This document shows positions 19,824 to 36,137 of a DNA stretch of 39,196 nt, in pieces. Each line of letters opens with the position of its first letter. Within the stretch, counting starts at the first letter, position 1. Under the pieces are notes generated by a model. That model searched no databases, was not told the origin of the DNA, and saw only the letters and a list, made by a program, of their open reading frames with translations. This DNA is from an uncultured Pelagibacteraceae bacterium (lineage in GTDB: Bacteria > Pseudomonadota > Alphaproteobacteria > Pelagibacterales > Pelagibacteraceae), in NCBI GenBank assembly GCA_902574705.1, contig CACGOM010000010.1:1-39196 (forward strand). Direction: 5' to 3'. The position numbers were made by a program, and so were the translations under genes.

Positions 19824-20837
19824 ATGTATATAGAAAATAATATTATAAAAAATCAAATATCTATATGGCTTATATTTATGTTTTGCCTTGTTGCATTAAT
19901 GATAATTATAGGTGGTTTGACTAGGTTAACTGATTCAGGTTTATCAATTACAAAATGGGAATTATTTTCTGGGACATTGCCACCACTAACGAAAGATAAA
20001 TGGATTAGTTATTTTGATCAATACAAACAAATTCCTGAATTTAAATTACAAAATTTTTCTATGACATTAAGTGAATTCAAAGTAATCTTTTGGTGGGAAT
20101 GGGGACATAGGTTTTTAGGCAGATTAATAGGTATATGTTATTTAATACCTTTGATATATTTTTCTTGGAATATTCATCCCAAGATTTTAAAAAAATTTTA
20201 TTTCATTTTTTTTCTAATCTGTTTTCAAGGATTTTTAGGTTGGTATATGGTTTCAAGTGGGCTTGAACAAAGAATAGATGTAAGTCACTATCGATTATCA
20301 GTTCATTTGTTAGTAGCATTTATTATTCTATCTTTAATTTTTTGGAATTTTTTACAATTGAATTATAGTAAAAATAAAGATTATAAAATTAATTATTTTA
20401 TACCATTAATCTTTTTAATAATGATTTTTATTCAAATTGTAGTAGGTGCATTTGTCTCTGGAATGGATGCTGGTAAAATTTATAATTCCTGGCCTTTAAT
20501 GGGCGAAACTTATTTTCCAAATGATAATGATTTTACAAATTTATTTGAATTTACTGTTTTTAATGATCCATCATTGGTTCAATTTATCCACAGAAATTTA
20601 GCTTATCTAATTGCTTTATTTTATTTATATATAATTTTTAAAGTTCATATAAATAAAATAACTAATCTTTATAAACCAGTATATTTTTTAGGTTCTTTTA
20701 TATTTTTACAGATTATTCTAGGTGTATTTACTATTTTACATGGTGCACAGATTTATATTGCATCTATGCACCAAATAAGCTCTATATTTTTAGTTAGTTC
20801 GAGCATCTACCTATTATTTTTAAACAGTAAGAACTAA
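19824..20837 (+). CDS. ctaA: Heme A synthase (CtaA/Cox15)
   Basis: Integral membrane protein that oxidises heme O to heme A for cytochrome c oxidase. It is 337 residues long with about eight hydrophobic segments. Landmarks are GGLTRLTDSGLSITKWE (about 31-47), EFKVIFWWEWGHRFLGRLIG (about 90, with a conserved His), VDVSHYRLSVHLL-like RIDVSHYRLSVHL, GAFVSGMDAGKIYNSWPLMG and VQFIHRNLAYL, which together supply the heme-coordinating histidines. It ends convergently with the first metY, overlapping by four bases. Confidence 0.95.
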   Translation: MYIENNIIKNQISIWLIFMFCLVALMIIIGGLTRLTDSGLSITKWELFSGTLPPLTKDKWISYFDQYKQIPEFKLQNFSMTLSEFKVIFWWEWGHRFLGRLIGICYLIPLIYFSWNIHPKILKKFYFIFFLICFQGFLGWYMVSSGLEQRIDVSHYRLSVHLLVAFIILSLIFWNFLQLNYSKNKDYKINYFIPLIFLIMIFIQIVVGAFVSGMDAGKIYNSWPLMGETYFPNDNDFTNLFEFTVFNDPSLVQFIHRNLAYLIALFYLYIIFKVHINKITNLYKPVYFLGSFIFLQIILGVFTILHGAQIYIASMHQISSIFLVSSSIYLLFLNSKN

Positions 20838-22159
20838 CTTACGGCTTTCAAGTTTGGTTTTCCAGATGCATCTAAAGCTTGATTTAAATCTTCAATAATG
20901 TCATCTGAATGCTCTATGCCAATAGATAATCTTACATACCCAGGTGTTACACCTGCAGCCAATAGCTCTTCTTCTGTCAATTGACTATGTGTTGTTGTGG
21001 CAGGATGTATTGCCAAACTTCTAGCGTCACCTATATTTGCAACATGGTAAAACATTTTTAGAGCTTCTATAAATTTTTTACCTGCTTCAACTCCACCTTT
21101 AACTTCTATTCCAATTAACGCTCCATTTCCACCTTTGAAATATTTTTTGGATCTTTCGGCAATTTTTCCTTCATGAAGAGTAGGGTAAATTACTCTTGTA
21201 ACATTTTTATGTTTCTTTAGGAAATCGACAACTTTTTCTGCATTTGAACAATGTTGTTTCATTCTAAGTGGTGCTGTCTCTAACCCTTGAATAATTCCCC
21301 ACGCATTATCAGGTGCAAGTGGAGCCCCTAAGTCTCTCAAAAGACATACTCTAGCTCTTACAGCAAATGAAACATTTGCACCAGTTAATTGAGGTACTGC
21401 TTCACCCCATTTAACACCTCCATAACTAGCGTCTGGCTCATTAAAAAGTGGTTGTCTTTTTGGATCTTTTGTCCAATCGAAATTTCCACCATCAATAATA
21501 CCTCCTCCAATAACAGTACCGTGTCCACCAATAAATTTGGTTAATGAATGAACTACAACTGCTGCACCGTGATCCAAAGGCTTACAAATAACTGGTGAAG
21601 CAGTATTATCCATAATAAGTGGTATACTATATTTTCTTCCTATGTCAGATACCTCTTTAATTGGAAAAACTCTTAGATAAGGATTTGGTAATGTCTCTGC
21701 ATAAAAACATCTAGTTCTATCATCTATTAATTTCTCAAAATTGGCTGGGTCTGAAGGATCAGCATATCTACACTCAATACCTAATTTTTTTAAAGTATGA
21801 GTAAACAAACTTACAGTACCACCGTATAAATCTGTTGAACTTATAAAATTATCTCCAGATTGACACACATTCATAATTGCAAATGTCGATGCTGCTTGTC
21901 CTGAACCAACAGTTACGGCAGCAAGACCATTTTCTAACGCAGAAATTCTTTTTTCTAAAACATCATTGGTAGGATTCATTATTCTTGTATAAATGTTACC
22001 AAATTCTTTTAGTCCAAATAAATTTGCTGCATGTTCAGTACTATCAAATTGATATGAAGTTGTTCTGTAAATTGGTACTGCAACTGAATTAGTAGCTTGA
22101 TCTTTACGATAATCTCCTCCATGCAATGCAATTGTTTCTGGATGTTTTGATTTAGTCAT
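20834..22159 (-). CDS. metY: O-acetylhomoserine sulfhydrylase (MetY type), riboswitch-controlled copy
   Basis: PLP enzyme that makes homocysteine from O-acetylhomoserine and sulfide. The PLP Lys is K208 in VVHSLTKFIGGHG; VPIYRTTSYQF (28-38), NIYTRIMNPTNDVLEKR (55-71) and LYGGTVSLF (111-119) are typical. The chosen ATG at 22159 gives 441 residues and is preceded by AGGAG at 22166-22170 with six bases between, one of the best ribosome-binding sites in the window. An in-frame upstream extension to 22204 would add 15 unconserved residues and run into the leader RNA, so it is rejected. A SAM-II type aptamer and a second aptamer-like element lie just upstream. Confidence 0.94.
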   Translation of the reverse strand: MTKSKHPETIALHGGDYRKDQATNSVAVPIYRTTSYQFDSTEHAANLFGLKEFGNIYTRIMNPTNDVLEKRISALENGLAAVTVGSGQAASTFAIMNVCQSGDNFISSTDLYGGTVSLFTHTLKKLGIECRYADPSDPANFEKLIDDRTRCFYAETLPNPYLRVFPIKEVSDIGRKYSIPLIMDNTASPVICKPLDHGAAVVVHSLTKFIGGHGTVIGGGIIDGGNFDWTKDPKRQPLFNEPDASYGGVKWGEAVPQLTGANVSFAVRARVCLLRDLGAPLAPDNAWGIIQGLETAPLRMKQHCSNAEKVVDFLKKHKNVTRVIYPTLHEGKIAERSKKYFKGGNGALIGIEVKGGVEAGKKFIEALKMFYHVANIGDARSLAIHPATTTHSQLTEEELLAAGVTPGYVRLSIGIEHSDDIIEDLNQALDASGKPNLKAVS

Positions 22160-22226
22160 ATTTTTCTCCTTTTTTAGTGCTTGAGCTTTATGCAGGGCGC
22201 ACAATATAGTTCAAATACCCGCCGAA
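22160..22226 (-). promoter_or_regulatory. Candidate second SAM aptamer (SAM-V-like) overlapping the metY ribosome-binding site
   Basis: Immediately after the SAM-II element the leader can form a second small H-type pseudoknot: GGCG (22223-22220) with CGCC (22199-22196), and loop UUUGA (22215-22211) with UCAAG (22184-22180). It is followed by CUAAAAAAGGAG, which includes the AGGAG ribosome-binding site. The CUAAAAAAGG end resembles the SAM-II/SAM-V core. SAM-V riboswitches are known in marine bacteria, some in tandem with SAM-II. The pairings were found by eye; the class assignment is inference. Confidence 0.42.
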
Positions 22227-22236
22227 TATGTTGAAA

Positions 22237-30145: not shown

Positions 30146-30421
30146 CTAGAGTGAAAAACCCTCCATTTTAAGAAGTTTTTTTTTGGTTTTTTTACCTCCT
30201 GGACCTGAATAACCGCCCAAGCCACCATCAGATCTAATAACTCTATGACATGGTACTTTTGGTGCATATGGGTTCTTTCCTATAGCATTTGCTACTGCTC
30301 TTACTGCTTTTGGCCTTTTTATAGCTTTTGCAACATCAAGATATGTTCGAACTTGGCCTTTTGGGATTTTTAAAAGATATTTCCAGACTTGAATTTGAAA
30401 TTTTGTTCCTTTGAAAATCAT
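30146..30421 (-). CDS. MGMT/Ogt C-terminal-domain protein (alkyl-DNA transferase-like)
   Basis: A 91-residue protein equal to the C-terminal domain of O6-methylguanine-DNA methyltransferase. It begins FQIQVWKYLLKIPKGQVRTY, has the DNA-binding helix with the flipping Arg (AVRAVANAIGKNP, 39-51), the acceptor site VPCHRV with Cys58, and GGLGGYSGPGGKKTKKKLL. The N-terminal half of a full-length enzyme is missing. Alkyltransferase-like (ATL) proteins of this size usually have Trp in place of the Cys, so this one could still accept alkyl groups. I use ATG 30421; ten extra upstream residues would run into the G+C-rich RNA-like element. Confidence 0.82.
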   Translation of the reverse strand: MIFKGTKFQIQVWKYLLKIPKGQVRTYLDVAKAIKRPKAVRAVANAIGKNPYAPKVPCHRVIRSDGGLGGYSGPGGKKTKKKLLKMEGFSL

Positions 30422-30428
30422 AATACAG

Positions 30429-30613
30429 AAAAAACCCCTGTTTCCTTGCACTTTTTAAGGTGCAAAGAACAGTTGTTTTTGGCACGTCGTTGTATGCGCT
30501 ACCGCCATGCCTACCACTCTACGATTTTAGCGCTACTCCGCAGAGTTTTCTGCCCCCTGAGCTTGAACCTCTCGGTTTTTCCTCAATTGGCCAGTTAAGA
30601 GTTGCCTCTTAAG
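30429..30613 (-). ncRNA. Candidate structured RNA or leader, G+C-rich, class unknown
   Basis: In an otherwise very A+T-rich region, bases 30481-30600 are 63 of 120 G or C. Read on the minus strand, several hairpins appear: UUAAGAG-GCAA-CUCUUAA (30612-30595), AACC-GAGA-GGUU (30577-30566), GCAGA/UCUGC (30553-30540), and an eight-pair CUUUGCAC/GUGCAAGG hairpin (30467-30444), then six U (30434-30429). Two loops are GNRA tetraloops only on the minus strand, which favours that orientation. I could not match it to SRP, RNase P, tmRNA or tRNA. It ends eight bases before the MGMT-like ATG, so it could be its leader or a separate RNA. Confidence 0.5.
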
Positions 30614-30719
30614 TTAATGTAACAATATCAAAGTATTTATTTGAATGTTATCACTTAATTGTTGAATTTATTAACTTTTTAACACAGTTGAATAGTGGGG
30701 ATAACTAATAATTTGTTAT

Positions 30720-30896
30720 TTATTTCATAAATATCAAGCCAAAATAGCTTAATGAAAACAAAATAGCTAAAATAGATAGAAAATAAGTTTCTATTGTTTT
30801 TCCGTGTTTTTTATTTTGGATATAAGCAAGAACCCAAAAACCTAAGGCGCTTAATAAAAATATTATATTTGGTATTTCTCCATCAATTGAACCCAT
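30720..30896 (-). CDS. Small two-helix membrane protein (58 residues)
   Basis: Reads from ATG 30896 to TAA at 30720-30722. The predicted protein has two hydrophobic segments: about residues 10-26 (NIIFLLSALGFWVLAYI) and about 39-56 (FLSILAILFSLSYFGLIF), joined by a basic loop QNKKHGKT. That layout suggests a small inner-membrane hairpin protein. I recognise no family. Clean hydrophobic/charged alternation and an uninterrupted frame support it as a real gene. The promoter-like sequence of the divergent recombinase gene lies just beyond its start. Confidence 0.6.
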   Translation of the reverse strand: MGSIDGEIPNIIFLLSALGFWVLAYIQNKKHGKTIETYFLSILAILFSLSYFGLIFMK

Positions 30897-30977: not shown

Positions 30978-31934
30978 ATGAATGAATTAACAACAGATCT
31001 AAAATTGCTACACGAAGCTACATTAAATAATCTTAAAAGTTCTAAGGCAAATAATACTTTAAGAGCTTACAAATCCGACTTTAGGGATTTTGGAGCGTTT
31101 TGTGTTAAGCATGGTTTAAATTCATTGCCAACAGAACCAAAAATAGTCTCTTTATACCTTACTCATCTCTCTAAAAATTCAAAAATTAGCACATTAAGAC
31201 GTAGATTGGTATCTATTAGTATGGTTCATAAGTTAAAAGGACATTACCTGGATACGAAACATCCAATAATAGTAGAAAATTTAATGGGAATAAGAAGAGT
31301 CAAAGGTAGCTTTCAAAAAGGAAAAAAACCTTTATTAATCAATCATTTAAAATCAATAATTAATGTAATAGATGAACAAAATATAGAAGAGATTAAAAAA
31401 CTTAGAGATAAGTCAATTATACTTGTTGGCTTTGGAGGCGGCTTTAGAAGAAATGAACTAATATCAATTGATTATGAAGATTTGGAATTTGTAAATGAAG
31501 GGGTTAAAATTATGATCAAGAGATCAAAAACTGATCAATTTGGTGAAGGAATGGTAAAAGGACTCCCCTATTTTACAAATGAAAGTTACTGCCCAATAGT
31601 AAACCTTAAAAAATGGTTAGAATATTCTAAAATAAAGTCTGGAGCTATTTTTAGAAGATTTAATAAAGGAAGAAATTTATCTGATAAAAGATTAACAGAC
31701 CAATCTGTAGTTTTGTTAATGAAAGAATATTTAAAATTAGCAGGTATAGATAATAAAAATTTTGCAGGACATAGTTTAAGATCTGGTTTTGCTACAGTAG
31801 CAGCAGAATCAGGGGCTGATGAAAGAAGTATAATGGCGATGACTGGACACAAAACAACACAAATGGTTCGAAGATATATAAGAGAAGCTAATATATTTAA
31901 GAATAACGCATTAAATAAAATAAAAATCGATTAA
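30978..31934 (+). CDS. Tyrosine recombinase/integrase
   Basis: A 318-residue site-specific recombinase. The N-terminal SAM-like core-binding domain covers about residues 1-105 (NTLRAYKSDFRDF), the catalytic domain about 115-318. All catalytic residues are visible: Arg157 in GFRRNEL, Lys184 in SKTD, His265 and Arg268 in HSLRSG, His291 in TGHKT and nucleophile Tyr300 in RRYIRE. The enzyme should therefore be active. It lies at the far end of a glycosyltransferase cluster from tRNA-Glu, and converges on the fucosyltransferase-like gene with a four-base overlap of stops. No phage structural genes are nearby. Whether it moves this island or is a domesticated recombinase is open. Confidence 0.9.
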   Translation: MNELTTDLKLLHEATLNNLKSSKANNTLRAYKSDFRDFGAFCVKHGLNSLPTEPKIVSLYLTHLSKNSKISTLRRRLVSISMVHKLKGHYLDTKHPIIVENLMGIRRVKGSFQKGKKPLLINHLKSIINVIDEQNIEEIKKLRDKSIILVGFGGGFRRNELISIDYEDLEFVNEGVKIMIKRSKTDQFGEGMVKGLPYFTNESYCPIVNLKKWLEYSKIKSGAIFRRFNKGRNLSDKRLTDQSVVLLMKEYLKLAGIDNKNFAGHSLRSGFATVAAESGADERSIMAMTGHKTTQMVRRYIREANIFKNNALNKIKID

Positions 31935-36062: not shown

Positions 36063-36137
36063 TGGCGGTCCCTAGGGGAATCGAACCCCTCTTTCATGGA
36101 TGAAAACCATGTGTCCTAACCGATAGACGAAGGGACC
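36063..36137 (-). tRNA. tRNA-Glu (anticodon UUC)
   Basis: 75 bases including an encoded CCA. The acceptor stem GGUCCCU pairs with AGGGACC, followed by discriminator G and CCA. The anticodon arm is CAUGG-UUUUCAU-CCAUG with UUC at the anticodon positions, and the T arm is GAGGGGUUCGAUUCCCCU. The body closely follows bacterial tRNA-Glu. A TACAAT -10-like box lies 15 bases upstream on the minus strand, within the 45-base gap after recJ. The 3' end marks the border between core genes (recJ) and the glycosyltransferase island. Confidence 0.97.

Follow-up and report, generated by a model that had tools for sequence, protein, structure and literature searches.

A G+C-rich island in a Pelagibacteraceae contig is a copy of IMES-2, a structured RNA with complementary hairpin loops and a recurrent upstream module

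Identity and extent of the element

The G+C-rich island beside an MGMT-like gene in the window (the whole stretch of DNA analysed, 39,196 nucleotides) is a copy of IMES-2, which was already on record as a structured RNA of SAR11 bacteria. Its minus strand, 30619..30479, matches Rfam family RF02035 over positions 1-141 of 141 with 158.1 bits (Rfam scan; cut-off, 54.7 bits); the entry type is 'Gene'. SAR11 bacteria, which have few regulators, rank with the most abundant marine cells. We know of no function for the IMES-2 class, and no relevant paper naming it was found in the literature searched.

The element is identical in kind to RF02035 (full-length match, family hairpins in order, single copy per genome), and within the searches made here IMES-2 occurs only in Pelagibacteraceae. 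The identification is ordinary, the family being known, and the additions are modest: putative kissing loops, a portable promoter-like module and natural absences. Beyond the RF02035 model lie the pairing of loops L3 and L4, a terminal hairpin, the upstream module, a gene neighbourhood that changes between genera, and clean absences. New as far as could be checked are the L3-L4 complementarity, the universal GNRA first loop, and the upstream module that appears to move with the RNA.

A preliminary description, made from sequence alone, had placed the element in no known class and proposed an Rfam scan and a covariation check in relatives. The class was wrongly left blank: the scan settles it as IMES-2, and the consensus hairpins are kept by covariation. 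A functional RNA on the minus strand had been correctly proposed (Rfam match, covariation, own terminator hairpin), as had the exclusion of tRNA, SRP RNA, RNase P RNA and tmRNA, since only IMES-2 reaches threshold at the locus (Rfam, ARAGORN). The island itself is real: 63 of 120 bases are G or C at 30480-30599 (composition count, 39-kb window), the top 120-base content in the window, reached at 4 of 39,077 positions, all within the IMES-2 locus, against a background of 27%. The minus-strand fold of 30625..30425 has -68.9 kcal/mol (z -4.77; 0 of 200 shuffles equally low), the plus-strand fold z -2.32 only.

Both minus-strand GNRA loops described earlier are present (GCAA of P1, 30605-30602; GAGA of P2), as are the six U after the last hairpin (hairpin 30472-30438, UUUUUU 30434-30429). 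The hairpins stand, their count of four does not: there are five, P1-P4 plus the terminator hairpin. The span 30429-30613 located the element; it clipped the 5' end of the Rfam match by 6 nt and omitted a conserved upstream module reaching about 30704 (minus strand). The features are as follows.

30479..30619, minus: IMES-2 RNA core, full-length match to positions 1-141 of Rfam RF02035 (cmscan, E 9.2e-42, 158.1 bits)
30595..30612, minus: hairpin P1, GCAA (GNRA) tetraloop (model alignment and covariation among relatives)
30550..30594, minus: hairpin P2, 4x4 internal loop, GAGA cap (model alignment and covariation among relatives)
30516..30546, minus: hairpin P3, 15-nt loop L3 (model alignment and covariation among relatives)
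30528..30533, minus: putative L3 kissing strand GCGCUA (covariation with L4)
30481..30511, minus: hairpin P4, 13-nt loop L4 (model alignment and covariation among relatives)
30496..30501, minus: putative L4 kissing strand UAGCGC (covariation with L3)
30429..30472, minus: terminator-like hairpin P5 (30472-30438) and six U (30434-30429), outside the Rfam model (fold z -4.81)
30620..30665, minus: promoter-like module, TCAACAATTAAGTGATAA (30665-30648) and -10-like TTTGATAT (30632-30625) (near-fixed distance to the RNA; putative function)
30687..30704, minus: tandem 9-mers TTATCCCCA and CTATTCAAC, DnaA-box-like (varied form upstream in most of 72 loci)
30146..30421, minus: MGMT-like gene (alkyltransferase DNA-binding domain), neighbour outside the RNA (PF01035, 3e-32)
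30978..31934, plus: tyrosine recombinase, divergent neighbour (PF00589, 7.8e-22)

The earlier suggestion of a 6S-like RNA did not hold. IMES-2 resembles 6S RNA (RF00013) in its similar length and in being free-standing, and differs in its architecture and in having no match to the model. At the locus, 6S RNA was absent among matches with E up to 10, and the Rfam model gave 0 matches in 99 Pelagibacteraceae genomes, with positive controls in five genomes, among them those of E. coli and Caulobacter. Identity with 6S RNA was rejected on the missing match and on the shape, four separate hairpins plus a terminal hairpin in place of one bubbled rod. That IMES-2 is a SAR11 substitute for 6S RNA, binding RNA polymerase, would fit its length of about 190 nt, its single copy and the lack of an Rfam 6S match in 99 family genomes; it is very unlikely given a shape of separate hairpins with a loop-loop contact, without a rod and central bubble, and the absence of the RNA from complete relatives.

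Secondary structure and loop-loop pairing

In 38 sequences, aligned with MAFFT independently of structure and scored for the Rfam hairpins together with one further helix, 93.8% of cells were paired and covariation was 0.469, against 0.194 for shuffled and at most 0.097 for slid alignments. Among 100 relatives 93.8% of pair cells were likewise paired, with two-sided changes at 36 of 45 pairs and covariation of 0.471 (0.182 shuffled; at most 0.086 slid), but the alignment behind these figures had been fitted to the nested pairs beforehand. The P1 loop is a GNRA tetraloop in 100 of 100 sequences (GCAA, 94; GUAA, 3; GUGA, 2; GCGA, 1), a universality that suggests a docking role.

The loops of P3 and P4 are complementary over 4 to 8 Watson-Crick pairs, in a helix absent from the search model. 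This helix is 95.7% paired, and 34 cells are changed on both sides, against 4.6 in shuffles; the two-sided changes concern three of the six pairs and are seen in several genera. The L3/L4 variants are GUUCUA/UAGAAC (genera g11, g14); GAACUA/UAGUUC and GUGCUA/UAGCAC (g6); GUACUA/UAGUAC (g10 among others); GCACUU/UAGUGC (g7, g9; five of six paired); and UCGCUG/UAGCGA (one branch of g1). Counts of pairs and of pair types carry little weight by themselves (137 and 162 of 500 shuffles do as well); the changed-cell count and the covariation score lie above all shuffles. The longest Watson-Crick run averages 5.83 for a sequence's own loops, 4.41 for swapped and 3.17 for scrambled loops, the highest mean among 2000 swaps between sequences being 4.90. 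Covarying complementarity across genera points to a kissing-loop tertiary contact between L3 and L4, and supplies a concrete structural hypothesis on which mutants and an improved search model can be based.

The covariation is equally compatible with a contact within or between IMES-2 molecules, and the kissing may join two molecules. Dimers or rings would have precedent in GOLLD, ROOL and OLE RNAs, natural homo-oligomers according to one report (PMC12286853); these too are structured bacterial RNAs, described as large, whereas IMES-2 has about 190 nt. Near-constant UAG and CU(A) loop sides around a lineage-variable middle would suit assembly as well as folding. An intramolecular contact is simpler, however, and looks feasible with a linker of 4-6 nt and long loops, and we consider oligomers distinctly unlikely.

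Gene neighbourhood, upstream module and terminator

IMES-2 appears to be a free-standing RNA gene and not the leader of the alkyltransferase gene. In the window genus its neighbours are the divergent tyrosine recombinase on one side and the MGMT-like gene on the other (Pfam). In genera g2, g3, g4, g6, g8, g10, g11, g13 and g14 it is positioned after mnmA (assigned from an SGGVDS motif and sequence, not by family search), and the next gene is convergent where the contig continues, one short unshared ORF in g10 excepted; in g7 and g9 the neighbours are different again.

Looking across 72 loci from 13 genera, we find that a variable upstream module accompanies the RNA. It comprises adjacent 9-mers, TTATCCACA and CTATTCACA, about 85 to 66 nt upstream, and CAAC...AAGTGATA, about 46 to 30 nt upstream, plus a -10-like box. 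The tandem 9-mer pair and the CAAC-AAGTGATA element seem to have moved between gene neighbourhoods together with the RNA; nothing convincing was found when other genes with this module were sought in 0.88 Mb sampled. At the other end, the terminal hairpin is strong in 6 of 6 genera folded (z -4.8 to -7.3), with sequences unrelated between genera. A terminator scan did not call P5, probably because of extra bases between stem and U run.

The earlier alternatives were a free regulatory RNA, of which the free-standing part has held up (varied gene contexts, same upstream module), and a leader controlling the alkyltransferase gene, which is unsupported because nine other genera have no such neighbour and 11 Pelagibacter genomes keep the neighbourhood without the RNA. 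Between the end of the U run and the MGMT-like ATG at 30421 lie 7 nt, so that a side effect on this gene is possible in the window genus and its expression there may need read-through. A cis leader or attenuator proper is nevertheless very unlikely: in g2, g3, g4, g6, g8, g10, g13 and g14 the RNA faces a convergent, unrelated gene, and most RNA-less genomes examined keep the MGMT gene, which leaves at most a secondary effect.

A small ORF of 58 aa (30723-30896, minus) lies upstream of IMES-2. In several RNA-less genomes similar small ORFs directly precede the MGMT-like gene, so that IMES-2 sits inside an apparent two-gene unit.

The 9-mers upstream of IMES-2 resemble DnaA boxes. A link with DnaA found no support, TTATNCACA being no commoner than a reversed control pattern (genome-wide counts, four genomes). 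An origin of replication was rejected on these counts and on GC skew: in one genome (G043) the RNA lies at 1.339 Mb, near the terminus (GC-skew maximum at about 1.26-1.34 Mb), and in another (G009) away from both GC-skew extremes. A phage element was discarded as well, with no phage record matched and 0 of 17 viral contigs carrying the sequence motif passing the RNA model. Elsewhere in G043 (L104, about 14426-14336, minus) a sequence like the -35 region of IMES-2, TCAACTAATAAGTGATC, is followed by a short GAGGTGA...TCACCTC hairpin and a U run; this may be a tiny separate RNA, an attenuator, or chance.

Distribution and natural absences

The genome of the window holds one copy. IMES-2 was found in 134 of 197 sampled family genomes, each listed with one copy, and in 12 of 14 genera. 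Among 240 genomes sampled class-wide there were two matches, the window genome and another of Pelagibacteraceae. A pattern scan over 84,980 species genomes returned at least 80 loci; 78 of the 80 listed pass our own model, and all 78 of these are Pelagibacterales records.

Eleven Pelagibacter genomes without an Rfam match, several of them complete, have the recombinase locus with RNA, module and terminator gone. The MGMT-like gene was seen in 10 of the 11 RNA-less loci within the 900 bases read, and was not within reach in the remaining one (G035). Our own model (R1) detected no divergent copy in the RNA-less genomes searched with it, a weak match in G063 being discounted because it falls in a protein-coding region, and with search filters off no IMES-2 was found at the mnmA and recombinase loci of RNA-less genomes. 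Four further genomes without a match (G052, G058, G089, G002) look incomplete, as mnmA is missing there too. IMES-1 as a replacement gave no matches, with the control likewise silent. In P. ubique HTCC1062, none of the G+C-rich intergenic regions in Table 1 of Meyer et al. 2009 (PMC2704228) is IMES-2-like, which suggests that this strain lacks the RNA.

On the recombinase tree, presence and absence need 8 changes; well-supported branches force 3 of these, and allele exchange between strains could inflate the count. The absences show that IMES-2 is non-essential in the lineages without it. An RNA so widespread among the sampled genera and yet missing from complete genomes of the same genus provides natural plus/minus strains, in which a long-orphan class of RNA can be probed for its function.

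Proposed function

We favour, with somewhat better than even confidence, a gene for a free-standing noncoding RNA whose body is closed by kissing loops and which serves as a trans-acting protein-binding scaffold. A promoter at about 30665-30620 would drive a minus-strand transcript of about 190 nt, from about 30619 to about 30429; the kissing loops would hold a compact body; and the RNA would act in trans by binding one protein or a complex, and not through antisense pairing helped by Hfq. Such a scaffold best suits the anatomy of an RNA that is compact, brings its own start and stop, has closed loops and leaves little conserved sequence open; that it binds protein at all is guesswork, based on the compactness and on the absence of a conserved open seed.

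A small RNA that controls mRNAs in trans by Hfq-independent antisense pairing would also have the anatomy seen here, a free-standing terminated unit. It is unlikely, as the conserved positions are nearly all paired or kissing, so that no long conserved open seed remains, and Hfq (PF17209) was detected in 0 of 23 Pelagibacteraceae genomes, the window genome included (control positive in 5).

As a long shot, IMES-2 could be a small self-assembling or protein-organising RNA with a lineage-specific lock-and-key loop code (GCGCUA/UAGCGC, GUUCUA/UAGAAC, GAACUA/UAGUUC and others) and an activator on the tandem 9-mers, and could confer a dispensable trait, one missing from some strains of Pelagibacter.

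Other features of the window

A SAM-V riboswitch (RF01826, 82.4 bits) at 22163-22229 (minus) lies where an ORF for a trans-sulfuration enzyme (20834-22204, minus) begins; the listed TTG start falls inside the riboswitch, so that the true ORF start is probably downstream. The sole tRNA in the window is a tRNA-Glu (TTC) at 36063-36137 (minus).
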